NCBI RefSeq assembly: GCF_037039395.1
Contig: NZ_CP146241.1
Span: forward strand, 186,001 to 250,000
DNA: 64,000 bases
From: Agrobacterium vitis
Lineage (GTDB): Bacteria; Pseudomonadota; Alphaproteobacteria; Rhizobiales; Rhizobiaceae
Direction of reading: 5' to 3'
Shown here: positions 382 through 15,700 of the stretch, in pieces
How the letters are laid out: each line of letters starts with the position of its first letter
Position numbering within the stretch: the stretch's first letter is position 1
The notes under the pieces: generated by a model
The model's input: only the letters and a program-made list of their open reading frames with translations
Databases searched by the model: none
What the model was told of the DNA's origin: nothing
Translations under genes and position numbers: made by a program

Positions 382-451
382 AAGTGGGACGTGTTGCATC
401 GATCCCATATACATTTTTCACATTCAGCGTCTGTGGGAAGCTTCACTTACT

Positions 452-658: not shown

Positions 659-700
659 AGTGTTACAGCATCCCCAGTGCGTTTTATAAAACGCACGGCG
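648..700 (-). repeat. RIME-like intergenic palindromic repeat, partial copy A
   Basis: Read on the minus strand this matches the first half of the copy at 24743-24850: ACAGCGCCGTGCGTTTTATA, then the CGCAC arm, a short spacer and TGTAACACTTTAAAT. Only the first half is present. It resembles the Rhizobium intergenic mosaic element; the family name is from memory, while the similarity between copies is visible directly. Confidence 0.65.
677..696 (-). terminator. Perfect 20-bp palindrome after the ABC ATPase gene
   Basis: GTGCGTTTTATAAAACGCAC is a perfect inverted repeat located 10 bp beyond the stop codon of the minus-strand ATPase gene. It could fold at the end of the long minus-strand transcript. 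There is no following T-run, so terminator function is an inference; the palindrome is also the core of repeat copy A. Confidence 0.35.
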
Positions 701-705
701 CTGTG

Positions 706-1506
706 CTAAAATGCATGATTGGCGTGTCGGTGCGCCAATTCAACGTCAAAATGCGGTGGTGCGTCATGGGCGATTTCGACAAACCGCCCTTTGACGCGAA
801 ACACCTCTTCAATCAAGCCGCTTTCGGCCAGCGCGCGCGGCGCGCCGTCAAACATCAGTTCGCCTTTGCTCAGCAATGAGATCTGGTCGCAGATCGACAT
901 GGCCTGATTGAGATCGTGGATTGCCATAACAATGCTCACGCCCCGCTCTCGGCTCAGTTGATGAACGAGATTCAAGATCTCGATTTGATAGCCAATATCG
1001 AGAAATGAAGTGGGCTCGTCCAACAGCAGAATTTGGGCTTCCTGCGCAATTGCAGCTGATATCCATGCTCTCTGGCGCTCGCCGCCGGACAGTTCTTTGA
1101 GGCTTCTGTCCGCGAGATCGCTCAGGCCTGTGCTGTCCAACGCCCAATGGATGGCATCCTCATCCCGTTGGCTATAGCTTCTGAGCAGGCCAACATGGGC
1201 AAAGCGCCCTTGCCGAACCAATTGTGCGACTGTCATTTCGTCAGGCGCGGTTGGTTGCTGGGGCAAAAACGCCAGTTTTTTGGCCAATTGCCGCCTTGGC
1301 ATTGTATTCACAGGTGTGCCATCAATGGCCGCACTGCCCTCCTGTGGCACAATCAGTCCGGCCAATGCCTGAAGCGCTGTGCTTTTGCCAGAGCCATTCG
1401 GGCCGATCAGCGCCCGGATCTCCCCTGGCTTGATGGAGAGGGTCAGACGGTTGAGTGCTTTGCGCCGGGCATAATGGACGGACAGCCCCGAACAGGACAG
1501 CAACAT
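706..1506 (-). CDS. FecE-type ABC transporter ATP-binding protein (metallophore import)
   Basis: This 266-residue cytoplasmic ATPase would energise uptake through the two adjacent permeases. Walker A is GPNGSGKS at residues 35-42, the Q-loop is in LPQQP near 81-85, the signature LSGGERQR starts at 139, and Walker B with the catalytic Glu is LLLDEP near 160-165. Length and motif order are those of the iron-siderophore/cobalamin (FecE/FepC/BtuD) family. It is the last gene of a minus-strand run, 7 bp after the first permease. A palindrome follows the stop codon. The ligand is inferred from the neighbouring metallophore biosynthesis genes; the ATPase alone does not specify it. Confidence 0.9.
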   Translation of the reverse strand: MLLSCSGLSVHYARRKALNRLTLSIKPGEIRALIGPNGSGKSTALQALAGLIVPQEGSAAIDGTPVNTMPRRQLAKKLAFLPQQPTAPDEMTVAQLVRQGRFAHVGLLRSYSQRDEDAIHWALDSTGLSDLADRSLKELSGGERQRAWISAAIAQEAQILLLDEPTSFLDIGYQIEILNLVHQLSRERGVSIVMAIHDLNQAMSICDQISLLSKGELMFDGAPRALAESGLIEEVFRVKGRFVEIAHDAPPHFDVELAHRHANHAF

Positions 1507-1513
1507 GGGTTCC

Positions 1514-2551
1514 TCACGGTGTTTTTCGGATCAGAATAATCAGCACGGGAACCCCGAAAATGGCAGTGATAACGCCAATCGGAATTTCCTCTGCCTGTCC
1601 AAGAAGCCTGCCGATCAGGTCTCCCAGTGTAACAACAATAGCACCACAGGCGATGGTCATGGGCATGACCAATGCTGCCCTTTTGCCTGCGAATTTACGG
1701 GCAAGATGCGGCACCACCAGACCAACAAAAACAATTGGGCCAACCGTTGCGACAGCGCTTGACGCCAGCAAACAGGACAGGAGCAAGGCCAAAGAGAATT
1801 GAAGGCGGTAGGACAGGCCAAAGGAGCGTGCGACAGGCGCATCAAACCGCAGCAAATCAAGAGAACGTCGCAAAAACGGCAGCGCGAGCAGCCCAACCAC
1901 CGTGTAGGGAAAGAGGAATTTCACGTGCTCCCAGCTGCGCGCATAGAGGCTGCCTGACAACCAGTCGAGCAGAACTTCAAGCCTGTTGGAGCCCCAACCG
2001 GCAATAAGGCCGATGGCCAGCGCCTGCAACACGGCACCAACGGCAATGCCGCACAGCGTGATCCGCAACGGGCCGAGATCGTAGCGAAAGGCCAAAAGAT
2101 AGATCAAGCCGCCGGCGAGCATCCCTCCCAGCGTACCGACAGTGGGTAACCACCCCAAAGGCAGCTCAGGCAACACTGTTGTGCCCGTGTAGCGGATGTA
2201 CACGGACAAGAACAAAAATAAACTGACCGCCAGCGTGGCACCCTGGGAAACGCCCATAATGGAGGGATCCGCAAGAGGATTGCGGGTGATGTTTTGCAAC
2301 AACAGCCCCGCCAGCGCCAAATGAATACCGGCCAGCATTCCGATGAGAATGCGCGGAAAACGGATATCCCAGATAATCGACCGCGCCTCGTGAGAGCCAC
2401 CGCCCGTGAAAACCGCAAGGACATCGGCGGGCGGTATATCGACCACGCCAAGCAAAACAGCCACAATCGGTGTCAGCACCATCAGGACAAAGGCAACCAC
2501 CCAGATCCAAATGGGGACTTCGGTATTTCGAGCAGGAACAGCCGTGTCCAT
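1514..2551 (-). CDS. FecCD-family ABC permease
   Basis: Hydrophobic protein of 345 residues with about nine to ten membrane segments, and the family hallmark LLLQNITRNPLADPSIMGVSQGA-like loop near residues 85-105 (ITRNPLADP). I chose the start MDTAVPARN at 2551 rather than the ATG at 2611: the upstream permease ends at 2553, giving a one-base gap, and the extra 20 residues are polar and out of character. It would pair with the next gene as a heterodimeric channel for a metal-chelate complex. FVGLVVPHLAR, the coupling-helix region contacting the ATPase, is intact. Confidence 0.88.
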   Translation of the reverse strand: MDTAVPARNTEVPIWIWVVAFVLMVLTPIVAVLLGVVDIPPADVLAVFTGGGSHEARSIIWDIRFPRILIGMLAGIHLALAGLLLQNITRNPLADPSIMGVSQGATLAVSLFLFLSVYIRYTGTTVLPELPLGWLPTVGTLGGMLAGGLIYLLAFRYDLGPLRITLCGIAVGAVLQALAIGLIAGWGSNRLEVLLDWLSGSLYARSWEHVKFLFPYTVVGLLALPFLRRSLDLLRFDAPVARSFGLSYRLQFSLALLLSCLLASSAVATVGPIVFVGLVVPHLARKFAGKRAALVMPMTIACGAIVVTLGDLIGRLLGQAEEIPIGVITAIFGVPVLIILIRKTP

Positions 2552-2552
2552 C

Positions 2553-3566
2553 CTAGCCTCCGACCGCGATTTGGCGGCGTTGCACCAGATAGATGAAGAG
2601 CGGCCCGCCAAGCAGCGCGGTGATGATGCTCACCGGAAGTTCGCGCGGCGGCGCAATACTGCGTGCAATCACATCACCGGATACGACCATAAAGCCACCA
2701 ATAACGGCGGTTAAAATAATGTTCCAGACTGGCCCCTTGGCTTTGAGCAGTCGAGCGATATGGGGCGACGCCACACCAACAAAGGCCACAGGCCCAGCCA
2801 CAGGCACGACGCCCGCCACCGGGATAACCGCTATAAGCAGCAGCAGAGGTTTCCAAAACCGTAAATGCAAACCCATGCCTGCGGCCGCCTGTTCGCTCAA
2901 AGCCAGCATGGCAAGAACGCGATGGCAGGCCAACGCACCGACCACACCAATGCCAACCCAGGGAAGCATGAAGACAAGCTGCGGCCATGACCGCCCCTGA
3001 AAACCGCCAGAGAGCCAAAACAATAGCGATGGCACCTGCGGCCCGCTCGACAGGATAACCCATGTGGTGATGGCGCTGAGAAAAATGGAAATACTGATGC
3101 CACCCAGAGCCAGATGCAACGAACGCCCCACGCCGCCACGCGCAATCCAGAACGTCACAAGCGCTGCCGATATTCCGCCGAGCATTCCAATCAACGGATA
3201 ATAGACCGAGGAAAGCCAGGGCAAGAAAACGAAACACACCACGATTGGCGCGATGGCCCCAGACGTGACACCCGTTAACCCCGGTCCAGCCAATGGATTG
3301 CGTGTTAGCGTTTGCAGCAGATAGCCCGCCACACCCAGTCCAACCCCTGCTGCAAAAGCCGCAAGACTGCGCGGCAGGCGCAACGTCCAGACAAGAATGG
3401 AGTCAAGCTTGCCATCAGGTGCGAAGAGCACATGCAAAAGCGCCTCAGGCCGAATTGGCAATGTGCCCAGCATCAAGCCAGCAACAATCACCAGTGCGCT
3501 GGCGACCAGAAACAGGGTCGTCAGCGCCAACAGGTGCAGGTTGCCGTGTGAACTTGCTGCCTTCAC
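2553..3566 (-). CDS. FecCD-family ABC permease
   Basis: Second inner-membrane permease of the importer, 337 residues, starting MKAASSHGN. It carries the family loop LLQTLTRNPLAGPGLTGV near residues 84-101 and the ATPase-coupling segment FVGVASPHIARLL near 265. About nine or ten membrane spans are visible. It lies 8 bp downstream of the binding-protein gene and one base upstream of its partner permease, so translation is probably coupled. Two separate permease genes fit FecCD/FhuB-type siderophore systems rather than a BtuC homodimer. No TonB-dependent receptor occurs in the window, so outer-membrane passage must rely on a gene elsewhere. Confidence 0.88.
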   Translation of the reverse strand: MKAASSHGNLHLLALTTLFLVASALVIVAGLMLGTLPIRPEALLHVLFAPDGKLDSILVWTLRLPRSLAAFAAGVGLGVAGYLLQTLTRNPLAGPGLTGVTSGAIAPIVVCFVFLPWLSSVYYPLIGMLGGISAALVTFWIARGGVGRSLHLALGGISISIFLSAITTWVILSSGPQVPSLLFWLSGGFQGRSWPQLVFMLPWVGIGVVGALACHRVLAMLALSEQAAAGMGLHLRFWKPLLLLIAVIPVAGVVPVAGPVAFVGVASPHIARLLKAKGPVWNIILTAVIGGFMVVSGDVIARSIAPPRELPVSIITALLGGPLFIYLVQRRQIAVGG

Positions 3567-3574
3567 GACAGATG

Positions 3575-4543
3575 TTACTTCTGTACGCTGGCAGGGATCA
3601 GCTTTGACGCTTCCGCCTTCACATCAACAACAGGGAATGTATCGGGATAAAGGAAGTGAGCGGCCTCACGCAGCACCAGCTGTCGAGCAATCGGACCATT
3701 GGTTTCGACCCACTCATCACCAACGTAATAGACTCGATTGTTTTTGACGGCGGACAGCATTTTCCAGATTGGATTGTTTTCCTGTGGGCGATCTGGCCCA
3801 CTGTCATACACGAAGATGACCTGAGGGTCTTTTTCCAGCATGGTTTCGAGGCTGACCTCCATGCCAAACTTGCCGTCTTTCTGGGTTGGCCCGACGATGT
3901 TATCGCCGCCCAGCGCTGCGACAATCGAAGCCGCTGTATTTTCTGTGTGGAATGAAAATGGCGTATCACCGCCCCACATAATCTGAAAACGTGGATGAAC
4001 CCCCTTGGGGGCCTTCGCGGCATAATCTGTCATGTCACGCTTAAAATCTGCGTTGAGCTTTTCACCGTCCTGCGGCTTGCCCAGGAGTTTTGAAAGATCG
4101 GCAACCTCTTGATAACTTTGGCTTAAAAGCTCCATATTATAGGCGATATAGGGAGCGATCTTTTCATATTGCGCAGCATTGCCAACCGTATAGCGGCGCA
4201 TGGCAACGATAACGTCAGGCTTTGTCTCAGACAAAATCTCAAGGTTTGGCTTTGCCCGCTGCCCGATTTGAACCATGCCTTTCGTCAGACCCAGCAAATA
4301 ATCCGGGTTCCGATCAGGCATCATATAGGTCGTTGCGACAGGTTTGATACCAAGCGCAAGCGCCACATCCACACCAACATAGGAAACGGCAGCGACGCGC
4401 TGTGGATTGACCTTAACGTCAACAGACACGCCGCGATCATCCTTGATTGTAATCTTAGCGGCCTCATCGGCCATGGCAGAGCTGGATGCCAATGCCACAA
4501 GCAAACCCATCACTGGGCTAAGGCGCAAGCCTTTGACTTTCAT
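3575..4543 (-). CDS. FecB-type periplasmic metallophore-binding protein
   Basis: The 322-residue protein starts with a Sec signal peptide (MKVKGLRLSPVMGLLVALAS) likely cleaved after SSAMA. The mature part has the two-lobe class III binding-protein layout. The strand PQRVAAVSYVGVDVALALGI and the loop LGLTKGMVQIGQRAKPNLEIL are typical of FepB/FecB/BtuF-type proteins, which deliver metal chelates to FecCD permeases. It begins a four-gene import unit separated from the exporter gene by 367 bp, so this unit may have its own promoter. That interval holds metal-regulator-like half-sites. Ligand identity is inferred only from the neighbouring biosynthesis genes. Confidence 0.88.
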   Translation of the reverse strand: MKVKGLRLSPVMGLLVALASSSAMADEAAKITIKDDRGVSVDVKVNPQRVAAVSYVGVDVALALGIKPVATTYMMPDRNPDYLLGLTKGMVQIGQRAKPNLEILSETKPDVIVAMRRYTVGNAAQYEKIAPYIAYNMELLSQSYQEVADLSKLLGKPQDGEKLNADFKRDMTDYAAKAPKGVHPRFQIMWGGDTPFSFHTENTAASIVAALGGDNIVGPTQKDGKFGMEVSLETMLEKDPQVIFVYDSGPDRPQENNPIWKMLSAVKNNRVYYVGDEWVETNGPIARQLVLREAAHFLYPDTFPVVDVKAEASKLIPASVQK

Positions 4544-4910
4544 AATAGACTCTCCAAATTCAAGCGAATTGATAAAAAAGATGGTGTGATCGTCTCGATT
4601 GCGGCTTGCGCCGTATTCAAGACGGCACCCAGTACCGAAGCATAAAAAAAGACCCAGGTTTTCGACGAGGTGTTGTTGGGAAAATCCCTAACAATGAATC
4701 ATGAACATTACAATCATGTTTTACCTGCGATCGCCCAATTGATTTGCGCGACCTTGCGTTTCCTCAAAGCCATGAGAGTTTGCCAGGGAAAAGTGGGCAC
4801 CAATTTCCAAGACATACAAACGAAAACAATGACTTATAACATCATTCCGATTCCGGTTTTCTGTACGATGTTCTAGAGACTGTCTGGGTTCGATCTGAAC
4901 CTGACAGGCT
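4544..4910 (-). promoter_or_regulatory. Intergenic region before the import genes with hairpin and Zur-like half-sites
   Basis: AT-rich gap between exporter and importer. (1) 4880-4907: interrupted inverted repeat, CTGTC and GGTTC arms around AGATC, directly after the exporter stop codon, without a T-run. (2) 4831-4842: GACTTATAACAT, matching 9 of 12 positions of the Zur core ATGTTATAACAT and containing one full half-site. (3) 4704-4720: inverted repeat AACAT-N7-ATGTT. (4) A run of seven T on the minus strand near 4644-4650 could mark attenuation. Together these suggest metal-responsive control of the import genes, but only the sequence motifs are observed. Confidence 0.4.
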
Positions 4911-6329
4911 CTAACCGGCAGCAACCGTCGCTTTCGGCACAACAAGGCCGCTCCTTGTGTGTGCCAACCGCAAATCAGTGATAAAACGCCACCACAGCTG
5001 GATACTTGTCGTGGCAAAGCCAAGGCACAGCCCAAACCATATCCCGAGACTGCCCCAACCAAGCCAAAATCCGCTGACGAACATGGCGGGAATACCGATC
5101 AGCCAATAGCCAATCAACGTGCTGATCAGGCCCGATTTCGTGTTGCCCAATCCGCGCAACAGGCCGATGCAAATGTTCTGAGAACCCTTGAAGAACTGAT
5201 GGGCGATCGCAAACCAAAGTAATGTTGCTGCGAGCGAAGCCAGGGCAGGATCTATGGGCTCGGCAAGAAAAGGATGCAGCACAGATTGCGGTGCCAGAAC
5301 ATAAACCAAAGCAATGACGCTCATGGTCCCAAAACTGATCGTAAACGTTCGTCGCGCAATCGCACCAACCTCATCCAAACGGCCTTTACCAGCGGTTCTG
5401 CTCACAAGAATGGACGATCCCTGTGAGAGGCCAATGTTCAACTGATAGACAATATAGGCAAGCTGATTGACGATGTTGGATGCCGCCAGCGCAACCGGGC
5501 CAAACGTTCCCATCAGAACGGTGGCAAACGAGGTAATGGCAGCTTCCGATCCATAGGTCAGCGAGATCGGAGTACCCATTTTTACAATCTTTTTAACGGT
5601 GGCGGTTTGAGCGTGCCAGCCGTCCAGCACAAGCAGATCATTGAGCTTTTCATCGCGTTTGACCGTCCTGAAGTAAACGAAGAACGTCCAAAATTGCACG
5701 ATTGTGGTGGACAGACCTATGCCTGCCAATCCTAAATTCGGCATTCCAAACCAGCCGAAAATAAACAGGGCATTGAGCGCGGCATTGATGATGATGGATG
5801 CGATTGTGACAACCAGAAGAGACCCTGCCCTGCGCATTCCGACAGCAAATTGCCGCAGAACATTCAGCCACAACATCGGAACCAAACCCGGTGCCAAGGC
5901 TATCATAATGGGTTGAGCAAGAGCAACGACGGCAGGGCTTTGCCCCAAATAGCTCAGGGAGCAAGCAATCAAAACCAAAAGCGCGCCAGCACCAAGAGCA
6001 ACAAGGGTAGCCAGCAGCATCGCCGCCCTCAGAATATCGCGCACATCGTTACGCGCGATATCATCTATCAATGATGTGCCAGTGCGCTTTTCGCTTTGGC
6101 CCACCGAAGCTGCAATCATGTTGCCAACACCTGTGACCATACCAACGCACATGGTGCGGAACTGATTGTAAAGCAATATCGCAAGCCCGCCTGCGGCAAC
6201 AGCCTGCACGCCCAAAAAGGCCATCATAAACAGATCAGTGCTGGTCAGGGCGACCTGTGCAAATTGAATGCCGACAATGGGGGCAGCGAGGGATAAAATA
6301 GCGCGGTATTGGCGAAATTCAAAAGCCAT
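4911..6329 (-). CDS. MATE-family multidrug/metallophore exporter
   Basis: Inner-membrane protein of 472 residues with about twelve hydrophobic segments in two six-helix halves, typical of MATE antiporters, which use a proton or sodium gradient to expel small organic molecules. The N-terminal segment YRAILSLAAPIVGIQFAQ and later TMCVGMVTGVGNM are characteristic of the NorM branch. It lies 7 bp downstream of the SbnA-like gene in a run of biosynthesis genes, so secretion of the product of that pathway is the simplest role. Staphyloferrin B loci use an MFS exporter at the equivalent position, so this is a functional substitution rather than an orthologue. Confidence 0.88.
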   Translation of the reverse strand: MAFEFRQYRAILSLAAPIVGIQFAQVALTSTDLFMMAFLGVQAVAAGGLAILLYNQFRTMCVGMVTGVGNMIAASVGQSEKRTGTSLIDDIARNDVRDILRAAMLLATLVALGAGALLVLIACSLSYLGQSPAVVALAQPIMIALAPGLVPMLWLNVLRQFAVGMRRAGSLLVVTIASIIINAALNALFIFGWFGMPNLGLAGIGLSTTIVQFWTFFVYFRTVKRDEKLNDLLVLDGWHAQTATVKKIVKMGTPISLTYGSEAAITSFATVLMGTFGPVALAASNIVNQLAYIVYQLNIGLSQGSSILVSRTAGKGRLDEVGAIARRTFTISFGTMSVIALVYVLAPQSVLHPFLAEPIDPALASLAATLLWFAIAHQFFKGSQNICIGLLRGLGNTKSGLISTLIGYWLIGIPAMFVSGFWLGWGSLGIWFGLCLGFATTSIQLWWRFITDLRLAHTRSGLVVPKATVAAG

Positions 6330-6336
6330 GACGTTC

Positions 6337-7404
6337 CTATACTCCCATTGAGAACGCCGGAGCGCTCACCAAACGCATGGACTCTTGATAGGCATCGAAA
6401 AGCCCATGAACACCCATGTGCTTTGCTCCATCCAAAAGATGGCGCTCAATCAGCCAATCATCGTCATAAATACTATCAAGGTATTTCTCGCCCGCGTCAC
6501 AGACGAGAACAACCATTGTGCTATTGGGCTCAATAAGCGCCAATCGTTTCATGGCAACATGAATTGCCGCACCTGCGGTGCCACCGATCAGCAATCCTGT
6601 GCGGCGGGCAATCACACGCGCAGCACTAAAGGCATCAACGTCATCAACCGTCAGGCCTTCATCAATGAAGGCATGATCCACATTCGGACCAACGGTAAAT
6701 CCGCCCGGAGCACCGGCCCCCGTCTGCCAGTATTTTCCGGCGGGGCCACCAAAAATAATCGATCCCGTGGGTTCAACACCTATGCTGGTGACGTTGGAGC
6801 CAAGCATACGCAGCGCTTTGACTGTACCGCACAGGGTTCCACCCGTGCCAACGGCACCCACGAGATAATCAATGTCGGCATCGACGTCCCGCAGCAGTTC
6901 TTCCGCAAGCCCAATGTAGCCCAAATTATTATTGGGATTATAGTGCTGATCAGGCCAGAAGGCTCCGGTTGCGGCCACGATCTCTTCGGCCATGCGTCGG
7001 CGCTGCACCGTGCTGGGGCCTTCACCATTGCCTTCAACAAAAATCAGATCGGCTCCCATCGCTTTCATGGCGCGCAACTTGTCGCGTGACGCATGATGAT
7101 CAACAACCGCAGTAAACCGATAACCTCGCTCAAGGGCCACGAGCGCGAGCCCTGTGCCGGTATTGCCCGATGTTGGCTCCACGATATGCCCGCCGGGCTT
7201 AAGCTTGCCTTCACGTTCGGCGGCGAGGATCATCGCGCGCGCCATGCGCACTTTGCACGATCCTGTCGGATTGAACTGTTCCAATTTCAGCAAAAGTCGG
7301 CTTCCCGTGCCCGTTTTCGCAAGTTCGAGCATTGGCGTATCGCCAATCAACTCTGAGGCTTTCGCCTTGACGCAATCAAAAGAGTGACGATTGAGAATAT
7401 TCAT
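6337..7404 (-). CDS. SbnA-like PLP-dependent diaminopropionate-forming synthase
   Basis: A 355-residue fold-type II PLP enzyme of the cysteine synthase family. The cofactor lysine is K51 in NPTGSCKVR, the phosphate/substrate loop TSGNTG is at 78-83, and the glycine-rich VGTGGT loop near 190 is present. In staphyloferrin B synthesis SbnA joins O-phosphoserine and glutamate into a precursor that SbnB cleaves to 2,3-diaminopropionate. An SbnB-like and a SerK/SbnI-like gene are two and three genes away, which favours this role over cysteine synthesis. The start overlaps the decarboxylase stop by 4 bp (ATGA). An amino donor other than glutamate (such as aspartate) remains possible. Confidence 0.82.
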   Translation of the reverse strand: MNILNRHSFDCVKAKASELIGDTPMLELAKTGTGSRLLLKLEQFNPTGSCKVRMARAMILAAEREGKLKPGGHIVEPTSGNTGTGLALVALERGYRFTAVVDHHASRDKLRAMKAMGADLIFVEGNGEGPSTVQRRRMAEEIVAATGAFWPDQHYNPNNNLGYIGLAEELLRDVDADIDYLVGAVGTGGTLCGTVKALRMLGSNVTSIGVEPTGSIIFGGPAGKYWQTGAGAPGGFTVGPNVDHAFIDEGLTVDDVDAFSAARVIARRTGLLIGGTAGAAIHVAMKRLALIEPNSTMVVLVCDAGEKYLDSIYDDDWLIERHLLDGAKHMGVHGLFDAYQESMRLVSAPAFSMGV

Positions 7405-8756
7405 TGATCTATCCTCCAGGTGAAATGTTCACCTTGTTGAGACACAATAATTTTTGGAGGGAGCGGAAGCTGGTGAAACTCGCTCTCATTTTTGTCCATC
7501 TGATAGCCGGCAGTATTGGGATAGACAATCAGGTCGCCATGACGTGGCGTTGCGGGGAAAAAGATTTTTCGCCAGGTCAAAACGTCATATTCCATGCAAC
7601 TTGAGCCACCAATGGCAGCCCGAACTGGTATTTGCGCACGCGCTGCCCCGCGCTGAATGAGAGAGGGCGTGGGCAGAAATTCACTGTTCTTCCATTGCTC
7701 GGACAGGCTCATGCTCAGTCCGGCAACGGTGACAATGCCGTGGTCATCATTCTGCTTAAACCCCTGGACCGGGAACACCGTCATGCCCGCGCCATCCAGC
7801 AGCGCCCTTCCCGGCTCGAGATAGAGCTGTATCTTGGCGGCGCTGAGCTGTGCCGACAGGGTCGCATTTCCTGTCGGTGATTGCAGGATAGCATCCAGCA
7901 TATCTGCACCCGTGGGAGTTTGATAATTCGGATAAAACTGGCTGAAGCTCTTGCCTGCATGAAAGTGGCTGGGGTTGAGATTGGCGTTAAACGCGAGCCA
8001 ATCTTCTTCATCAACGTAACGGCAGGCAAAGCCTCCGCCAATCGAGATCGCATTGCAGGGAAATCCGCGCTCTCTTGCCTCTCTGCACCGCTCAATCAAC
8101 GCAGATGCCAGCTCTGCTCGTGGTGCAACGGCGTACCCGTCAAGATGGAACGAGAATCCGTCCATAATAATAGAGTGCCGGTTTTCGGCGCAGCGCTGCA
8201 AAGCTGTAGCAAGATCGTTTGGATTGAGACCAAAGCGGCTGTTTGGTGCCTTGGGCGGCAAGATGCGCAACAAAATCCGCAATGATCCTGTTTCAGATGC
8301 GATCATGATCGCCCGTTCAAGTTCGTCCAATGCATCAATCGCAACAATTGCCCGGTGTCGGGCTGACAACCATAGAAGCTCATCGCTTTTGGCGGCCCCT
8401 GTTACCCCGATGTTTTCACCACGGATGCCATTGGCAAGTGCATGGTGAAATTCAGGCACACTTGCGACATCGACCGAACCATTATGCTTGGCCACTTCGC
8501 GGAGCCATGCCGCCGCCTTATTGGCCTTTTTGCCATAAAACACATGCCCGTTAACGTTTCGATGGCGCAAAGCTGCCTGAAACGCCAGCAAGTTATCGGC
8601 AAAACTCTGCGGATGAACGAGGTGAAATGGGCCGTTGGCGACGTGTGCAATCTGATCCAGAATTTTGACATCACGCTTGATGTCGATCGCCCAAGGCCGC
8701 TCAATGGCCCGCATCGTATTGGGTGCAGCCCGTATCGTATTGGGTGCTATTTCCAT
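7401..8756 (-). CDS. Fold-type III PLP decarboxylase (SbnH/ornithine-diaminopimelate decarboxylase family)
   Basis: This 451-residue protein is an alanine-racemase-fold PLP decarboxylase. The lysine-bearing motif is FYGKKANK at 73-80. GFSFHLDGY, the phosphate-binding SIGGGFA and EPGRALLDGAG follow in the usual order. SbnH of staphyloferrin B removes CO2 from a diaminopropionate unit to leave diaminoethane, and this protein could create an ethylenediamine backbone here. The N-terminus has a small internal repeat (APNTIRA then APNTMRA), and a later ATG cannot be excluded as start. It overlaps the upstream gene by 10 bp and the downstream gene by 4 bp, so stoichiometric co-translation is likely. 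Confidence 0.82.
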   Translation of the reverse strand: MEIAPNTIRAAPNTMRAIERPWAIDIKRDVKILDQIAHVANGPFHLVHPQSFADNLLAFQAALRHRNVNGHVFYGKKANKAAAWLREVAKHNGSVDVASVPEFHHALANGIRGENIGVTGAAKSDELLWLSARHRAIVAIDALDELERAIMIASETGSLRILLRILPPKAPNSRFGLNPNDLATALQRCAENRHSIIMDGFSFHLDGYAVAPRAELASALIERCREARERGFPCNAISIGGGFACRYVDEEDWLAFNANLNPSHFHAGKSFSQFYPNYQTPTGADMLDAILQSPTGNATLSAQLSAAKIQLYLEPGRALLDGAGMTVFPVQGFKQNDDHGIVTVAGLSMSLSEQWKNSEFLPTPSLIQRGAARAQIPVRAAIGGSSCMEYDVLTWRKIFFPATPRHGDLIVYPNTAGYQMDKNESEFHQLPLPPKIIVSQQGEHFTWRIDQ

Positions 8757-9742
8757 AGCTCGACCCTCGTACCCCGGCCCGCCGAAATCGCACGCATTGC
8801 AAAAGCATGCGCAACGGGAATATCCGTAATGATCATGCCACTGCTGAAAGCAAAAACCCGGTCAGTCTGTGAGCGACGTCCAGGCTTTCGACCCGCAACG
8901 ATCTCCGGGAGTTCGGCGTCAATGCTGGCAACTTGCCCTTCACCTGCCAGCCTTTTGCCGGTCACGCCCATCTGGCCTTCGTTTGTGGCAATAGCGTAAT
9001 CGGCTTGGTGCAGGGCACCGGCCTCGACACCTTTGCTCGCAACTGAAATCAACAACCCTCCAGCGGGGAGCCAATTGGTCTGGATCTTCGGATGCGCTGC
9101 ACGCCCCGAGGCGGCCACAACGATGTCCGATTGAGAAACAGCCTCGGGCACATCATCCACCAATTCAATGGTGCGATCAGGAAAGTATTTGGCGAATGTC
9201 GAGAGGCTCAGCGCCAACCCATCCGGGTGCGTGCCGTAGAGGCGAAACGTCTTCAGTGATGGCAATGCCGTCAACAGATAGGCCAGTGTATTGACGCCCT
9301 GCGCGCCGGTTCCAACCATCAAAACGGACTGCGGGTTTTCCTTGGCGCAATATTTTGCAATGATGGCTGTCGTAGCCGGCGTGCGTGAGCCACCAATCCG
9401 CTGGCAATCCATAAGCGCAAAGGGCAAGCCGGTTGTGTCATCATAAAGGCTGATCGTCGTATAATATTTTTCTGCACTATCATTGCCTTGACGATAGGAT
9501 GTCTTGAAACCCAGTTGTTCCAGAGCGCCATCATATCCCAGCATGGAATAGGATACGGCATCGCGCTCCTCCTTTGGAAGAGGCATCATCAATTTCGTTG
9601 GGCAACGAGAGGCACCATTCGCGTAATATCGATAGGCATCTTCGACCAACCTGATGACCTCGGCCGGCGGTAACTCAATATCCGATATGTCTGTGCGACT
9701 CAAAATATGCAACGCAGGTGTATGCAGGTATGACTTAGTCAT
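8747..9742 (-). CDS. SbnB-like dehydrogenase (ornithine cyclodeaminase/mu-crystallin family)
   Basis: A 331-residue protein of the ornithine cyclodeaminase superfamily. The dinucleotide-binding loop is VGTGAQG around 143-149 and the family segment MDCQRIGGSRTPATTA precedes it. I place the start at MTKSYLHTP (9742), preceded by GGAC, rather than the upstream ATG at 9835, whose extra 31 residues run into a repeat region. SbnB oxidises the SbnA product with NAD to release diaminopropionate and 2-oxoglutarate. True ornithine cyclodeaminase activity is the main alternative, but co-location with SbnA-, SbnH- and SbnI-like genes argues for metallophore precursor synthesis. Confidence 0.82.
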   Translation of the reverse strand: MTKSYLHTPALHILSRTDISDIELPPAEVIRLVEDAYRYYANGASRCPTKLMMPLPKEERDAVSYSMLGYDGALEQLGFKTSYRQGNDSAEKYYTTISLYDDTTGLPFALMDCQRIGGSRTPATTAIIAKYCAKENPQSVLMVGTGAQGVNTLAYLLTALPSLKTFRLYGTHPDGLALSLSTFAKYFPDRTIELVDDVPEAVSQSDIVVAASGRAAHPKIQTNWLPAGGLLISVASKGVEAGALHQADYAIATNEGQMGVTGKRLAGEGQVASIDAELPEIVAGRKPGRRSQTDRVFAFSSGMIITDIPVAHAFAMRAISAGRGTRVELWK

Positions 9743-9845
9743 GAACTGTCCTTTATGGCGAAAATGGTTTTTGGGCATGCGAAAGCGCAAGGGATTCCTG
9801 AAACAGGACCCGTGTATTTCTTGAGGATTGACCATAGGAGGAGCG

Positions 9846-9957
9846 CTTTACAAAACGCAAAAAGCACTCTGTAACACTCTAAAAGTTCCGCATAGTTTTT
9901 CTTTAAACAGAGTCCTGTTTAACAAATTATGCAGTAAAGACTTATGTGATGAGGTAA
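9846..9957 (+). repeat. RIME-like intergenic repeat, degraded copy B
   Basis: GCGCTTTACAAAACGC, then CTGTAACACTCTAAAAG, a central imperfect palindrome around TTTAAACAGAGTCCTGTTTAA and the end ATTATGCAGTA follow the same order as the copy at 24743-24850, with numerous substitutions. It fills the gap between the SbnB-like and the ParB/SerK-like gene. It may fold in the transcript and attenuate expression, but that is inference. Confidence 0.55.
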
Positions 9958-9960
9958 CGT

Positions 9961-10422
9961 CTATTGCGACGTCATAATAAATCCCGCACCATCAAAAGGT
10001 GCTGGTGCCCAGCTTTTGCTACGGGGATACTTGAGATCGTCAAGTGGAACCGCACACTCAGGCTTAGGTCCATTGAAAATATGTCGTGTTGTCTTGACAG
10101 GGAATTTATTGCCGGTGCGCGCCATTTCGAAAATGCTGTGTGGTGTAATGATCTCACCTGGCCGCCAAGCGCTGACCTCAACAGTGTCATAGTCCCTGAA
10201 TGAGACCGGTATAACTTCCAGCTGAAGCCTCTTGGCAACCGTGAGGCGATGGTGTCCATCCATCACAAAGAATGCATTTTTATGGACGTAGATGGGATCG
10301 GTCCAAACGCCATGCCGCACGATCTTGCGTTCGAGCCCCACGACATGAATTTCGTCAACCTCTTCGGTCGGTATAAGTTTGTTTGGATCTATTAGAAAAT
10401 ATATTGGAATGCCCGTATTCAT
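9961..10422 (-). CDS. ParB/sulfiredoxin-fold protein, SerK/SbnI-like (putative free-serine kinase)
   Basis: A small 153-residue protein with the ParB N-terminal/sulfiredoxin fold: strands IYFLIDPNKLIPTEE, the helix LERKIVRHGVWTDPIYV and the invariant MDGHHRLTVAKRL (DGHHR at 55-59). In archaeal SerK and staphylococcal SbnI this fold phosphorylates free L-serine to O-phosphoserine, the substrate of SbnA. It is the first gene of the minus-strand metallophore run, preceded by the ribosome-binding site GGGAG. It lacks the C-terminal heme-sensing region of SbnI, being about 100 residues shorter. A DNA-binding role is less likely because no HTH domain follows. Confidence 0.68.
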   Translation of the reverse strand: MNTGIPIYFLIDPNKLIPTEEVDEIHVVGLERKIVRHGVWTDPIYVHKNAFFVMDGHHRLTVAKRLQLEVIPVSFRDYDTVEVSAWRPGEIITPHSIFEMARTGNKFPVKTTRHIFNGPKPECAVPLDDLKYPRSKSWAPAPFDGAGFIMTSQ

Positions 10423-10608
10423 TGACGTCTCCCTAGACGTTTGTATTGACGAGACTTTTGTATAAATTTTTTTTATGCCCTGACCTTAGCGCGATTATAG
10501 GTGTTGTCAATTAAAAACATGATTGCTTTTATCATCTTTTAATTTACACGCAAAAGTAGCGCTTCCCAATAAATTGGACCGCTTAGAACTGGAATTTTCC
10601 GCCTATGA
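10423..10608 (-). promoter_or_regulatory. Promoter region of the metallophore biosynthesis genes
   Basis: AT-rich stretch upstream of the SerK/SbnI-like gene. On the minus strand CTATAATC (10493-10500) is a good -10-like element, and TTGACA lies just before it but at too short a distance to be its -35. A poly-A/T tract (about 10466-10475) is nearer the gene. No convincing Fur, Irr or RirA box was found by eye. Confidence 0.35.
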
Positions 10609-10915: not shown

Positions 10916-11006
10916 TTTTCCACAGCCAGCCATTGCAATCGCAGAACTGGACAATTGAATATCCATCAAGGTCTCGACAACGAAAACGAGTATGGCTAAT
11001 AGCGTA

Positions 11007-11018: not shown

Positions 11019-11031
11019 AAGGGAGATGCCC

Positions 11032-12558
11032 ATGCTCAAGACATCCATATCCATGCTCGCAGCATCTGTACTGCTGCTCTTTTCCGGCTCGGCGTTTGCC
11101 GGCGCGAACGACATGATCGTGGACGTCGTCGCTCCCTTCGAGATCACCGGGTTGGATCCAGCCAAGTCGGGCGATATCTTCCTGCGTATGGGCATTGTCG
11201 AAACACTGGTGGAATCCGACAAGGACGGCAACCCGGCACCGGCGCTCGCAAAAAGCTGGGTCGCCTCGCCTGACGGCGCGTCGGTGCGTTTCAGTCTCCA
11301 GCCGGGTATCACCTTTCATGACGGATCGGCGCTTGCTGCGGAAGATGTCGCCAGAGCGCTGAACATTGCGCGGGGCAAACCCGGCCTTCTGAGCAAAGCG
11401 CCGATTGAGTCCATAACCGCCGACGGGCAAGGCACCGTTGTCGTTACGCTGACGCGGCCTTTTGCCCCAATTCTGGCCTTCCTTGCTGAAAGTCGCGCAC
11501 AGATACTTGCGCCGTCTGCCTATGAGGGCAACAGCGTCAAGGCAATTATCGGCACCGGCCCCTTCAAGCTGACAGGTATCGAGGCACCGCAAAGTCTCGC
11601 CGTCGAACGGTTTGATGGCTATTGGGGCCGCAAGCCCGCCATTGAGAAAGCGACCTATCTCACGGTAAGCCGCGGAGAAACCCGCGCTTTGATGGCTGAA
11701 AGCGGCGATGCGGACTATGTCTTCAACCTCGATCCGGCCAGCCGCACACGTCTGGCCAAGAGCGACAAGGTCAAGCTGCTCTCGACCTCGATCCCGCGCA
11801 GCGTATTGTTGAAGGTGAATGCTGGTCTGGCCTCACTTGAAGACGTCAAGGCGCGCGAGGCGCTGAGCCTTGCCATCGACCGTGAAGGGCTGGCGGTGGC
11901 CATCCTGCGCTATCCGGCCGCAGCAACCCAGCTTTTCCCACCGAGCGTCGGAATCTGGTACGACAAGTCGCTTGCCCCCCTCACCTATGATCCAGACAAG
12001 GCAAAGTCCCTTCTTGCCGAACTCGGTTGGAAGGCCGGATCAGATGGCATTCTTCAGAAGGACGAAAAGCGCTTCGCCCTGACGCTGACCACCTATCCGG
12101 ATCGCCCCGAGTTACCGCTGATTGCCGCCGTCCTTCAGGACCAGTTCAAGGAAATCGGCGTCGCATTGACGATCAATTCGGCCAATTCCAGCGAAATCCC
12201 AGCCAAGCATCAGGACGGCACGCTGGAACTGGCGCTGATGGCGCGCAACTTCGCCCTGGTTCCCGATCCCATTGGCACGATGCTTTCTGACTATGGCCCC
12301 AAGGGCGGCGATTGGGGTGCCATGAACTGGGCCAATACGGATTTCAACAAGGCCCTTGACGAGCTGACCCGTGCCACGGAACCGGCAGCAGCCGAAACCT
12401 TGCGTCATAGAGCCGTCGCTGCCATTCAAAACGATTTGCCAGTGATTCCGATTGCCTGGTATCAGCAGACGATTGCAGTATCTCCAAAGCTGGAGGGGGC
12501 TGCCATCGACCCCTTTGAGCGGAGTTTTGGCCTCCAGAATATGCGGTGGGCAAAATGA
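11032..12558 (+). CDS. NikA/DppA-type periplasmic substrate-binding protein
   Basis: A 508-residue class II binding protein (SBP_bac_5). The signal peptide MLKTSISMLAASVLLLFSG ends near AFAG. Landmarks are LDPAKSGDIFLRMGIVETLV, LAKSWVASPDGASVRFSLQPG, FHDGSALAAEDV and IIGTGPFKL. I use the second ATG because GGGAG lies 6 bp before it. Relatives carry peptides, nickel or metal-opine/metallophore complexes; the closest look is to NikA/CntA-like members, by impression. It heads a plus-strand operon with ATGA overlaps and a Zur-like site in front. Proximity to the metallophore genes suggests, without proving, a metal-chelate ligand. Confidence 0.85.
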   Translation: MLKTSISMLAASVLLLFSGSAFAGANDMIVDVVAPFEITGLDPAKSGDIFLRMGIVETLVESDKDGNPAPALAKSWVASPDGASVRFSLQPGITFHDGSALAAEDVARALNIARGKPGLLSKAPIESITADGQGTVVVTLTRPFAPILAFLAESRAQILAPSAYEGNSVKAIIGTGPFKLTGIEAPQSLAVERFDGYWGRKPAIEKATYLTVSRGETRALMAESGDADYVFNLDPASRTRLAKSDKVKLLSTSIPRSVLLKVNAGLASLEDVKAREALSLAIDREGLAVAILRYPAAATQLFPPSVGIWYDKSLAPLTYDPDKAKSLLAELGWKAGSDGILQKDEKRFALTLTTYPDRPELPLIAAVLQDQFKEIGVALTINSANSSEIPAKHQDGTLELALMARNFALVPDPIGTMLSDYGPKGGDWGAMNWANTDFNKALDELTRATEPAAAETLRHRAVAAIQNDLPVIPIAWYQQTIAVSPKLEGAAIDPFERSFGLQNMRWAK

Positions 12559-13488
12559 TCGGCACTATCGTCAGCCGTCTCATCCAGGCAGCTCTGGTGG
12601 CGCTCATGGTTGGTATCCTGACGTTCGTCATGGCTAGGTCGCTGCCCGGAGACCTTGTCTACCGGATCGCGGCTGGCCGCTACGGCTACGACATCGTCGA
12701 TAGCGCCGCGGCGGCCAAAGTTGCAGCGGAGTTGAACATCGGCCAACCATCGCTTGCCGCTCTCGGGCAATGGTTGCTGGACCTGCTGCGTTTCGATCTC
12801 GGCACATCTCTGGTGACCGGTGAGCCGGTGGCGCAAGCCATCCGTGCCCAGTTAGGCCATACGCTTGAATTGGCGCTTGTCGCCATTCTGCTATCGCTTC
12901 ATCGGCCCGCCGCTTGGCGTTCTGGCGGGTCTGCGACCCGGCGGTCTGCTCGATCGTGCATTGATGTTACTGTCGACCGCGCTGCGGGCACTGCCGCAAT
13001 TCGTCGTTGGTCTGATCCTGATTATCGTCTTCGGTCTCACCCTCAATCTGTTGCCGACCGCTGGGCACGAGCACGGCGGCCACCTTGTCCTGCCAGCCCT
13101 TACGCTGGCGCTCGGTCTTGCGGCGGTCTCCAATCGCGTCGCCAGAGACGCCATGCTCTCCGTCTCCCAATCCGCCTATTATGCGTTTGGACGCACCAAG
13201 GGCCTTTCAGAATGGCAGGTCTTTCGTCATCACGGTTTGCGCAACGTCGCTGTGCCGATCGTCACCTATCTCGGCGTCCAGTTCGTCTACCTCGTTGAAG
13301 GCGTGGTCGTGGTCGAGACGCTGTTCGCTTGGCCGGGGATTGGACATGCGCTGGTCCATGCCATTTTTGGACGGGACCTGCCGATGATCCAGGGCACAGC
13401 TCTTATCATGGGTCTGTTCTTCGTGATCCTCAACGCGGGCATCGACCTCATGTGTCACATCATCGATCCTCGGAGACGCACGACATGA
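12555..13488 (+). pseudogene. DppB/NikB-type ABC permease, frameshifted
   Basis: The first 115 or so residues (MIGTIVSRLIQAALVALMVG through LELALVAILLSL) and the rest (IGPPLGVLAGLRPGG through MCHIIDPRRRTT) are both clear DppB-family sequence but in different frames. One excess base at about 12900, in CTTCATCGGC where CTTATCGGC would restore LLSLIGPP, explains the break. Both ends keep the ATGA overlaps with neighbouring genes, and the downstream genes are intact. Either a recent mutation has disabled the transporter or this is a sequence error. All expected features (EAA-like loop near YAFGRTKGLSEWQVF) are otherwise conserved. Confidence 0.82.
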
Positions 13489-14303
13489 CGGCTCTCGATT
13501 ATACAGCGCCAACTGAGGCGCGTTGGCCGCCACGCCGGCTGGCGGGACTTGCGATCCTCGCAGGCCTGCTGGTATTCGCCTTCCTCCCTCTGTTGATCGG
13601 GGGCGAGAATCCGTTGAAACAATCATTACGGCTCTCGCTGCAGGGGCCGACTGTGAGTAACTGGTTCGGATACGACCACCTTGGCCGCTCGATGCAAGCG
13701 CGCCTTTCGGCTGCGCTGCGGCTATCCCTCGGCTTGGCAGCACTGTCGGTCCTGACCGCGATGATCCCTGGCGCTCTTCTGGGTGCTGCCGCCGCCTGGC
13801 GCGGCGGTTTTATCGATAGGGCGATCGGTGCGGTCTCGGAAGCCTTTCTGGCTCTGCCCGGACTACTCTTGATCCTGATGCTGACCGCGATCGTCCCCGA
13901 TAGCGCCGCCATGCTCTATCTCGGCATTTCTCTGGTGCTTTGGGTCGAATACTTCCGTATCACCCGCGCTCTCACAAAGCCGTTGCTTGCGTCACCAGCC
14001 GTCGAAGCCTCAAGGCTTCTCGGGTTCGGGCCAATCTATATTCTACGCAGGCATTTATGGCCGGACATCGCGCCGGTGCTGCTGACTATGGGGGCCTATG
14101 GGGCAGCATCCGCCATGATGGCTATCACCGCCCTCGGTTTCGTCAGCGTCGGCGTTCGGCCTCCAACACCCGAGCTCGGTGCCATGATGATCGAGCTTCT
14201 TCCCTATTATGAGGAAGCCCCCCACGCCATTCTCCAACCAATCGCAACGATCTTTCTGATCGTTCTCGCGTTGCAGCTCATCGGGGGAAAGAACAAGCCA
14301 TGA
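13485..14303 (+). CDS. DppC/NikC-type ABC permease
   Basis: Inner-membrane permease of 272 residues, starting MTALDYTAP at an ATG overlapping the previous stop. N-terminal membrane anchor (LAGLAILAGLLVFAFLPLLI), then the periplasmic motif WFGYDHLGRSMQARLSAALR. This corresponds to GTDxLGRDxxSR in the family, and the usual GTD is altered. The ATPase-contact loop is EASRLLGFGPIYILRRHLWP. It pairs with the frameshifted DppB-type gene. The length is on the short side for the family (about 280-300). Confidence 0.86.
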   Translation: MTALDYTAPTEARWPPRRLAGLAILAGLLVFAFLPLLIGGENPLKQSLRLSLQGPTVSNWFGYDHLGRSMQARLSAALRLSLGLAALSVLTAMIPGALLGAAAAWRGGFIDRAIGAVSEAFLALPGLLLILMLTAIVPDSAAMLYLGISLVLWVEYFRITRALTKPLLASPAVEASRLLGFGPIYILRRHLWPDIAPVLLTMGAYGAASAMMAITALGFVSVGVRPPTPELGAMMIELLPYYEEAPHAILQPIATIFLIVLALQLIGGKNKP

Positions 14304-15700
14304 CCGTTTTACTCGATGTGACCAATGCGACGGTTTGCACCTCAACCGGCGTCCTGGTAGAGCCGGTCAGCCTCACGCTTCATGCCGGACGCGCTTTTAC
14401 CATTCTTGGCGAAACCGGATCGGGCAAGAGCCTGCTCGCACAAGCCATCATGGGCATCCTGCCGGACGGACTGACCGCGAAGGGCAACGCCATAATAGAC
14501 GGCATTGCCCTTGACCTCGCCAACCCCTTGGGGCATCGCGCGCTCTGGGGGCGCAAGGTCAGCATTCTGCCGCAAGAACCGTGGCTGGCGCTGGACCCAA
14601 CCATGGATTCTGCCCGGCAGATTGCCGAGGGACATAGGTTTGTTGGCGGCATGACGACGACAGCCTCTCTCGCGGCGGCCCGTATCGACCTGGCCGCGCT
14701 CGGCGTGGCCGATGCCGAGAAAAAGCTGCCGGGCGAATTGTCCGGTGGCATGGCGCAGCGGGTGGCTTTTGCCGCAGCACGCGCAGGGGGCGCCCGGATT
14801 GTGGTTGCGGACGAACCGACAAAAGGGCTCGATGTCTCCCGCCGCGACGACGTCATCGCACTGTTGATGAAAGAAATCGAGGCAGGCGGCTCGGTCCTCA
14901 CCATCACGCATGATCTGGCGCTCGCACGGCAAATGGGCGGTGACCTAGCCATCATGGTCAATGGACGCATCGTCGAGCACGGCGAGGCCGCAACCATTTT
15001 GGCTCACCCGGTACATGATTATACGCGCCGCCTGATCGCAGCCGATCCGGACCGTTGGCAGAGGAATGCCAGCCGATCTGAAATGAAGGGCGACCCCATC
15101 CTGACCGCCCGCTCCATCGCCAAGAGCCGTGGTGGAAACGGCCTGTTTGAGGGGCTTGATGTAGACATAGCTGCGGGTGAGATTGTCGGCGTCACTGGTC
15201 CCAGTGGTTCGGGTAAGAGCACGCTCGGTGACATTCTACTTGGACTGCTGCAACCGGACAAGGGCTCGGTCAGCCGCCCGGCGGATGTCGCCCGGACGCG
15301 CTATCAGAAGATCTACCAGGACCCGCCCTCCGCATTTCCAGCCAAGATCCGCATAGGCACTAATCTGGACGATCTTATCCGCCTGCACCGATTGGACCCG
15401 ACACGGATCACGCCGCTGATGGAGCGCCTGCACTTGTCGCAGACATTGCTCGGACGCCGACCAGCGGAAGTCTCCGGCGGCGAATTACAGCGTTTCGCGC
15501 TACTGCGGGCACTGCTCCTTGATCCCGTCTTCCTCTTCGCCGACGAACCAACATCAAGGCTCGATCTCATCACTCAACAGGAAACCATTGAACTGCTTAG
15601 CGAACTGGCACGCGAACAGAATTGCGCCGTACTGATCGTCAGCCACGATGCCGCCCTCATAGGACATGCCTGCGACCGGAGCCTGACGATTTCGTCGTGA
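14300..15700 (+). CDS. Fused DppD-DppF-type ABC ATPase (two ATP-binding domains)
   Basis: A 466-residue protein carrying two ABC ATPase cassettes, replacing the usual separate DppD and DppF subunits. Domain 1: Walker A GETGSGKS near 37-44, signature LSGGMAQR, Walker B IVVADEP. Domain 2: Walker A GPSGSGKST near 301, signature VSGGELQR, Walker B FLFADEP. Both cassettes are compact. Domain 2 in particular is short (about 190 residues) and the usual C-terminal oligopeptide-transporter extension is missing from its end. The start overlaps the permease stop by 4 bp. It would power the same importer as the preceding genes, in which one permease is now broken. Confidence 0.88.
   Translation: MTVLLDVTNATVCTSTGVLVEPVSLTLHAGRAFTILGETGSGKSLLAQAIMGILPDGLTAKGNAIIDGIALDLANPLGHRALWGRKVSILPQEPWLALDPTMDSARQIAEGHRFVGGMTTTASLAAARIDLAALGVADAEKKLPGELSGGMAQRVAFAAARAGGARIVVADEPTKGLDVSRRDDVIALLMKEIEAGGSVLTITHDLALARQMGGDLAIMVNGRIVEHGEAATILAHPVHDYTRRLIAADPDRWQRNASRSEMKGDPILTARSIAKSRGGNGLFEGLDVDIAAGEIVGVTGPSGSGKSTLGDILLGLLQPDKGSVSRPADVARTRYQKIYQDPPSAFPAKIRIGTNLDDLIRLHRLDPTRITPLMERLHLSQTLLGRRPAEVSGGELQRFALLRALLLDPVFLFADEPTSRLDLITQQETIELLSELAREQNCAVLIVSHDAALIGHACDRSLTISS

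Follow-up and report, generated by a model that had tools for sequence, protein, structure and literature searches.

A predicted ligase-free aminopolycarboxylic acid metallophore locus of Agrobacterium vitis, probably re-wired as an iron siderophore system

Which chelator could be made by a compact set of siderophore-type genes that includes no ligase, and which metal would it carry? The question is raised by a locus of Agrobacterium vitis that lies in a stretch of 64,000 nucleotides (the window), which corresponds to bases 186001-250000 of contig C1 (536,170 bases) in a 6.04-Mb genome. Open reading frame (ORF) listing and profile searches confirm nine open genes on the minus strand at 706..10422, where a first-pass annotation had placed them, and their order of transcription is SerK-like, SbnB-like, SbnH/Y4yA-like, SbnA-like, MATE, binding protein, two FecCD permeases, and FecE-type ATPase. 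The locus is probably of the type that makes ethylenediaminedisuccinic acid (EDDS; aes genes), an aminopolycarboxylic acid metallophore, and has been re-wired as an iron siderophore system; the enzyme types that define the class stand side by side, and both promoters carry predicted operators of the iron regulator RirA.

In the proposed pathway, a short SerK-like kinase would make O-phospho-L-serine, and the SbnA-like pyridoxal phosphate (PLP) enzyme would swap the phosphate for the amino group of L-aspartate to form N-(2-amino-2-carboxyethyl)-aspartate. The SbnB-like enzyme, working in the direction opposite to that of SbnB, would reductively join oxaloacetate as the second C4 unit to the free amine, and the Y4yA/SbnH-like enzyme would decarboxylate the diaminopropionate (Dap) core to leave an ethylenediamine bridge. 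The product would be EDDS or a close relative, made without an ATP-dependent ligase. It would be exported by the MATE protein, and its metal complex would re-enter via the FecBCDE-type importer after passing a TonB receptor whose gene lies in another part of the contig, with a Nik/Cnt-type importer as a second, possibly broken, route. RirA would repress both promoters at plentiful iron.

The biosynthetic cassette and its predicted product

The cassette consists of four minus-strand genes: an SbnB-like NAD(P)-dependent enzyme of the ornithine cyclodeaminase family (8747..9742, PF02423), an SbnH/Y4yA-like PLP decarboxylase (7401..8756, PF02784; TIGR01048 96 bits, below cut-off), an SbnA-like PLP enzyme predicted to act by beta-replacement (6337..7404, PF00291), and a MATE exporter (4911..6329, PF01554 and TIGR00797, above cut-off). 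The relatives of the decarboxylase are named as Y4yA family, and its closest named relative (96%), like that of the kinase-like protein (92%), is from Agrobacterium vitis. The three enzyme types together, namely SbnB/ornithine cyclodeaminase-, decarboxylase-, and SbnA/cysteine synthase-like, are the gene set given for aminopolycarboxylic acid metallophores in the accessible text of PMC13206832. The available description of antiSMASH 7 has a rule for the same class, based on cysteine synthase, DAP decarboxylase, and ornithine cyclodeaminase, and this kind of cluster is therefore already known. Judged by its genes, membership of the locus in this recognised class is well supported.

The arrangement is widely conserved. 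Among 66 loci fetched from a genome collection using an alignment of 22 SbnB-like proteins, 60 have the four genes in the order SbnB-SbnH-SbnA-MATE, all on the same strand and separated by no more than 146 bp, which is more than chance; in one of these, L056 (Rhizobium leucaenae USDA 9039), the SbnB reading frame is in two pieces, as is a permease gene. The others are L029, which has another gene instead of MATE, and L051, L052, L058, L065, and L066, in which at least one of the four genes was not detected; two of these, L051 and L058, are contigs shorter than 4 kb. Longest-ORF gene clustering of the high-GC actinobacterial loci picked antisense ORFs and was excluded from the counts, and L113 and L114, whose contigs equal those of L002 and L006 in length, appear to repeat these two loci. 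The hosts include Rhizobium, Roseibium, Methylobacterium, Undibacterium, Trinickia, Erwinia, Nocardia, Amycolatopsis, Kribbella, Tsukamurella, and Streptomyces. At E <= 1e-60 the cassette occurs in only 3 of 297 genomes of the host's own family, the own genome counted, and was found in none of the three further genomes listed for the genus; this rarity suggests horizontal spread. SbnB- or decarboxylase-like relatives (67-73%) also come from Francisella and Pseudofrancisella (P0045, P0050, P0154, P0156, P0172, and P0185). The five-gene order that begins with the kinase, for which the first-pass annotation had proposed a search, recurs in 7 of the 18 proteobacterial loci (L002, L003, L004, L005, L006, L011, and L056).

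This first gene, at 9961..10422 on the minus strand, is a short SerK/SbnI-like (Y4yB-type) gene for a predicted free serine kinase. The ParB-fold protein has 153 aa, compared to about 240-255 aa for SerK/SbnI chains, is without about 100 middle SerK residues, and matches SerK weakly (phmmer E 1.9e-4). Its AlphaFold model, built with 38 sequences, has a mean confidence (pLDDT) of 86.2. Nine structures of the Protein Data Bank (PDB) match the model at E <= 0.001, eight titled SerK or SbnI and the ninth an archaeal hypothetical protein, and ParB-type and sulfiredoxin structures match from E 1.6e-3. All of the 38 sequences compared share the residue E20, aligned with E30 of SerK, and the motif DGHHR, and the E30 position is mutated in several SerK/SbnI entries of the PDB; we take E30 to be catalytic in SerK. 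The protein thus combines the SerK/SbnI fold with the aligned glutamate, and its natural role would be to supply O-phosphoserine to the SbnA-like enzyme.

With regard to the product, Amycolatopsis japonica makes [S,S]-EDDS by a route described, in the accessible text, as unlike NRPS (nonribosomal peptide synthetase) and NIS (NRPS-independent siderophore) pathways (PMC4993170). Amycolatopsis keratiniphila, which belongs to the same NCBI species group, carries the cassette as well, with identities of 68% for SbnB, 56% for SbnH, 62% for SbnA, and 59% for MATE. We take the aes genes of A. japonica to match the cassette one to one. No NIS synthetase or NRPS lies in the locus, and profile searches detected no IucA/IucC domain in the own genome. 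Of 24 further genomes that carry the cassette, 21 likewise gave no match; these 24 were hand-chosen and represent 15 proteobacterial and 9 actinobacterial loci out of the 66, and the three genomes with IucA/IucC (those of L020, L032, and L039) are all actinobacterial. These results, with the 56-68% identity in A. keratiniphila, are in good agreement with the EDDS-like class that the first-pass annotation had proposed without NIS or NRPS genes. A true staphyloferrin-B-type pathway was rejected because there are no NIS genes and the scores are under the SbnA and SbnB cut-offs.

The genome does contain NRPS genes, at C1:306-341k, C2:2870k, and C4:1043k, with nine condensation-domain matches, all outside the window. 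It could be argued that the locus merely supplies L-2,3-diaminopropionate, or its decarboxylated form, to a synthetase elsewhere such as an NRPS, as SbnA and SbnB are described to supply Dap in staphyloferrin B and NRPS clusters (PMC9248904, accessible text), and the Sinorhizobium fredii genes y4yB-y4yA-y4xP-y4xO-y4xN do include a putative siderophore biosynthesis protein. However, the locus has a dedicated exporter and importer, IucA/IucC is missing from the own genome and from most of the cassette-bearing genomes searched, and a search with five of the NRPS proteins that the genome encodes gave matches in only 3 of the 66 loci (L002, L041, and L057), weakly, at 25-27% identity. Furthermore, the RirA-type sites in the NRPS stretch of C1 score under the maximum of simulated sequences (see below), with a single exception of 20.3 bits, which lies at the far end of L109. 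The C4 locus (L104, G000:C4:1043k-1051k) encodes a 1332-aa NRPS and has two RirA-type sites; since it has its own Lys/Orn N-oxygenase, it is probably a separate hydroxamate siderophore locus and not the missing ligase. A co-regulated synthetase elsewhere, which the first-pass annotation had named as evidence against a ligase-free route, is therefore absent as far as IucA/IucC is concerned, whereas NRPS genes exist and one of their loci carries RirA-type sites. Taken together, mere supply of Dap is improbable, but supply to an NRPS was retained as an alternative.

Another ligase-free aminopolycarboxylate, in which glutamate, alanine, or another keto acid replaces one aspartate as in compounds like rhizobactin or EDHA (ethylenediaminesuccinic acid hydroxyarginine), deserves more weight, given the family scores under cut-off and a sister type of the cassette in Rugamonas (L062) and Herbaspirillum (L064). 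The sister type shows 40-56% identity, has a dioxygenase directly upstream, and suggests that the second partner can change. The L062 dioxygenase scores 342.8 bits against an enduracididine hydroxylase model (cut-off 345) and 300.8 bits against an Arg hydroxylase model (cut-off 418.6). Such an Arg-hydroxylase-like enzyme would fit the hydroxyarginine product that we presume EDHA to be, and the two loci are likely EDHA-type clusters in Betaproteobacteria. Seventeen SbnB positions that are invariant in all of the 60 other sequences, including those of the window and of a Ti-plasmid (pTi) copy, are altered in both L062 and L064, for example R115, R245, H248, and R295, and we read this as a changed second substrate. 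The SbnB-like protein of the window has the EDDS-type residues, which are invariant from Amycolatopsis to Rhizobium. In addition, the L062/L064 hydroxylase does not appear in the best-match list of any ORF of at least 120 aa in the window, to which the search was limited, and an EDHA-type assignment was rejected for this reason. A replaced aspartate is thus rather unlikely, and EDDS or a near relative is still the preferred product.

Transcription units, operators, and importers

The minus-strand run had been annotated as almost gapless. This holds for six junctions of -10 to +8 bp, among them the previously reported overlaps of 10 bp (SbnB/SbnH) and 4 bp (SbnH/SbnA), but not for the 218 bp between the SerK-like and SbnB-like genes or the 367 bp between MATE and the binding protein, so a gapless single operon was rejected. 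These gaps divide the run, and there are two minus-strand units, each with its own operator. The most likely start of the SbnB-like gene is 9742 and not 9835, as AAAGGA precedes the ATG at 9742 and nearly all of 120 listed relatives cover about 88-93% of the query (the exceptions are P0009 with 99% and P0104 with 95%).

Upstream of the cassette relatives there is a palindrome, AACATGATTG-N6-TCATGTT, containing TGA-N9-TCA, which is the published RirA motif found in 5 of 10 RirA-bound peaks (PMC8822346, accessible text). In the window it is matched with one mismatch at two predicted RirA-type iron operators, one at 10516..10538 (plus strand), between the SerK-like gene and a divergent Nik-type operon, and one at 4698..4720 (minus strand), before the import unit. 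With up to three mismatches, the own genome has 24 strand matches at 19 distinct places, compared to 2 matches for the reversed control. Genomic context was examined for 7 of the 19 places, which are the two cassette promoters, three sites at TonB-receptor genes, and two in the NRPS/N-oxygenase locus. A matrix made from six iron-gene sites, none of them from the cassette, ranks the two cassette sites first (25.7 bits, kinase side) and second (23.9 bits, import side) in the window; the third site scores 13.3 bits and the maximum of 100 simulated sequences is 19.75 bits. Strong RirA-type sites are found at the same (ParB-like or binding-protein) promoters in L002, L003, L004, L006, L008, L056, L058, and L066. 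RirA itself is encoded in the genome (286.6 bits, cut-off 193), so that both the operator at the promoters and the regulator expected for a member of the RirA regulon are present. On this basis iron, not zinc, is likely the signal of the locus. No report of an EDDS-type locus under RirA in rhizobia was found among the matches listed in the open-access literature, outside which the main EDDS papers lie.

The import unit, on the minus strand, is of the FecBCDE type, and all four of its genes stand beside the cassette in 12 of the 18 proteobacterial loci. The periplasmic binding protein (3575..4543, PF01497) shares 44-74% identity with 11 cassette-side counterparts, and its AlphaFold model is poor (mean pLDDT 66.8). 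It is followed by FecCD-type permease 1 (2553..3566, PF01032), permease 2 (1514..2551, PF01032), and the FecE-type ATPase (706..1506, PF00005; best NCBIfam match FecE, 243.5 bits, below the cut-off of 375). For permease 2 the listed ORF extends to 2611, and the start was set at 2551 because the ATG there adjoins the stop of permease 1.

A divergent nickel/staphylopine-type importer on the plus strand (11026-15700) also belongs to the locus. Its NikA/CntA-like binding protein of the SBP_bac_5 type (11026..12558, PF00496) scores below the cut-offs of the nickel and staphylopine binding-protein models and has counterparts beside the cassette in L006 (50%), L005 (48%), and L029 (36%). The NikB-like permease (12546..13488) is split into two frames (12546-13298 and 12865-13488), with positions 1-106 of the Opp2B profile in one and 107-300 in the other; the split could reflect either gene disruption or a sequencing error. 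The NikC-like permease (13329..14303, PF00528; nickel_nikC 156.4 bits, below cut-off) probably has its true start downstream of 13329, and the fused NikD/NikE-like ATPase (14300..15700) shows two PF00005 stretches and 51% identity to that of L006. An Rfam scan of positions 1-16000 of the window gave no match.

The window encodes no TonB receptor, and there are six in the genome. One of these, at C1:523285-525498, shares 40-41% identity with the receptors encoded immediately before the cassette in L001 and L007. Its gene has RirA-type sites and is divergent from a gene of the major facilitator superfamily (MFS), another binding-protein gene, and a SerK/Y4yB-like gene, the second in the genome, with 52% identity to the first; this receptor is the best candidate for outer-membrane uptake of the chelator complex. 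The cassette-side receptor of L011 matched none of the six, and in L011 the RirA-type site (18.2 bits) lies solely upstream of that receptor gene. The second SerK-like/MFS/binding-protein/TonB region (L103 9131-14499, G000:C1:520130-525498) lies near ORFs that by eye look IS21-type, and tblastn gave no match for SbnA, SbnB, or SbnH in the 19.5-kb stretch of L103.

A paralogous set is found on a pTi contig of Agrobacterium vitis NCPPB 3554 (L029, 4053-20470), where SerK-like, SbnB, SbnH, and SbnA genes without MATE are part of a phosphonate-type cluster with phosphoenolpyruvate mutase (above cut-off), aminotransferase, nucleotidyltransferase, 2-hydroxyacid dehydrogenase, CDP-alcohol transferase, and a Nik-type importer. 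Of its RirA-type sites, the one at 15488 scores 21.4 bits, and the one at 4053 scores 17.5 bits, which is less than the simulated maximum. The cluster may make a phosphonate relative of the chelator.

Iron-type and zinc-type wiring

The first-pass annotation had implied zinc control by Zur, with which the operators do not agree. A Zur-like palindrome, ATGTAATAACATTACAT, has two perfect copies in one of two fetched znu loci, and the best matches at the cassette promoters have 5 of 17 mismatches on the kinase/Nik side and 6 of 17 on the import side; for random sequence of the same length, the median is 6 mismatches and the 5% level lies at 5. Conversely, neither of the two fetched znuA loci has a RirA-type site.

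The relatives show both kinds of wiring. In actinobacterial loci, the upstream region often has one of two elements, a Zur/Fur-like palindrome or an IdeR-like box; the A. keratiniphila cassette, for instance, has a Zur-like box (13/15). The Zur, IdeR, and Fur consensus strings used are those that we assume for these regulators, and Fur-like palindromes were presumed to be Zur sites in these actinobacteria. Among 36 actinobacterial loci, those with only a Fec importer have an iron box in 10 cases and a zinc box in 1, whereas the others have an iron box in 1 and a zinc box in 24 (Fisher p 4.6e-7). Iron boxes are thus paired with importers of the Fec type, and zinc-type boxes with importers of the Nik/Opp type or with none. 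This test dropped 11 of 47 loci, 10 without a box over threshold and 1 with both kinds, ignores kinship (L022 and L023 are one genome, L018 and L019 one species), and uses an IdeR threshold of 15/19 that was set after the box scores were known, the other scan having used 16; an Acidobacteriaceae contig from a metagenome-assembled genome (L051, IdeR-like 15/19) was left out. In a concatenated tree, which is without support values, the proteobacterial set forms one clade beside zinc-type Nocardia loci, and iron-type loci stand in more than one place, from which it seems that the cassette switched metal regulon more than once. It is conceivable, as a tentative proposal that we would put at a little less than even, that a single ligase-free chelator (EDDS or a compound nearly identical to it) is a zincophore in some lineages and an iron siderophore in others, with fixed enzymes and swapped promoters and importers. 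A Zur box would be combined with a Nik/Cnt-type importer or none and an IdeR or RirA box with a Fec-type importer, so that regulation and uptake, not the ligand, set the metal.

The locus itself could also be a zincophore system, or one for a nickel or cobalt chelator, in which the iron-type operator is misleading. EDDS of A. japonica was found via Zur sites (PMC13379591) and is described as Zur-regulated and zinc-controlled (PMC9252823, PMC6103462), in each case in the accessible text. Moreover, a Nik/Cnt-like importer adjoins the cassette here, Zur-like boxes are found in many actinobacterial relatives, and traces of zinc-type sites occur at both promoters. These points are opposed by the 5 and 6 mismatches to ATGTAATAACATTACAT compared to its perfect copies at a znu locus, by the RirA-type site missing from both znuA loci, and by the intact importer, which is of the FecBCDE siderophore type that is paired with iron boxes in actinobacteria. 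A zincophore, or a nickel or cobalt chelator, is thus unlikely here, if slightly less so than mere Dap supply, and iron is retained as the metal of the preferred reading.

Several points nevertheless weigh against an iron-wired EDDS system. The matrix result is supportive but not independent because its training sites were first spotted with a cassette-derived pattern, and no RirA-type site was found at the corresponding promoters in L001, L005, L007, L009, L010, L062, L064, L065, and L011. The Nik-type binding-protein gene is immediately preceded by the 5-mismatch Zur-like site, a match at the 5% level for random sequence, and half of the own znu palindrome, AACATTACA, occurs within the import-unit operator; because of these two features, there may be zinc input into part of the locus. 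The presence of the Nik-type importer likewise means that nickel, cobalt, or zinc may be carried. On the enzyme side, the SbnA-like protein scores 234.7 bits (TIGR03945) against an SbnA cut-off of 349.95, and the SbnB-like protein 101.8 bits against an SbnB cut-off of 326.9; neither is an equivalog, and the substrates may differ from aspartate and oxaloacetate. The equation of aes with this cassette would rest on our assumption of a one-to-one match, the A. keratiniphila locus, and the papers on the class. Finally, gene content, cassette conservation, kinase fold, operators, RirA presence, and the finding of no NIS synthetase were computed, and the pathway chemistry, that is, the substrates, step order, and product, as well as the metal carried, is predicted from them.

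Comparison with known systems

EDDS is known as a zinc-regulated actinomycete product and as a biodegradable substitute for ethylenediaminetetraacetic acid (EDTA). If the proposed reading is true, a version from Proteobacteria that is regulated by iron and includes its own supply of O-phosphoserine would enlarge the range of producers, provide a compact Gram-negative enzyme set for chelator production, and make testable what turns a promiscuous ligand into a zincophore or a siderophore.

The locus shares SbnI-, SbnA-, SbnB-, and SbnH-like enzyme types with the staphyloferrin B genes (sbnA-I), but it has no IucA/IucC-family synthetases and its proteins are under the SbnA/SbnB cut-offs. The Streptomyces EDHA cluster, as we presume, follows a related three-enzyme logic and needs an Arg hydroxylase; in contrast, the window has no Arg hydroxylase match, while L062 and L064 have a dioxygenase alongside. 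Similarity also exists to the Sinorhizobium fredii genes y4yB-y4yA-y4xP-y4xO-y4xN-y4xM, which encode Y4yB (P0303, a 54% relative of the kinase-like protein), a Y4yA-type decarboxylase, and a cysteine-synthase-like enzyme, and which differ in that y4xN codes for a putative siderophore biosynthesis protein and an MFS transporter is included.

The accessible text on the antiSMASH 7 class mentions neither RirA wiring nor a short SerK. The cluster of Nocardia mangyaensis NH1 (PMC10920908) is similar to the present locus in being an aminopolycarboxylic acid cluster with MATE for which iron control is predicted, but it is actinobacterial, its regulator is DmdR1, and the kinase and a Fec importer are unmentioned in the accessible text. 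In L044 and L046-L049, no Fec- or Opp-type importer was detected beside the cassette, and no SerK-like gene. The closest likeness is to the [S,S]-EDDS (aes) system of A. japonica, with which the locus would share a ligase-free ethylenediamine aminopolycarboxylate and in whose species group a homologous cassette is found. The A. japonica system is under Zur and zinc control, whereas the locus described here has predicted iron operators, FecBCDE- and Nik-type importers, and a putative kinase of its own.

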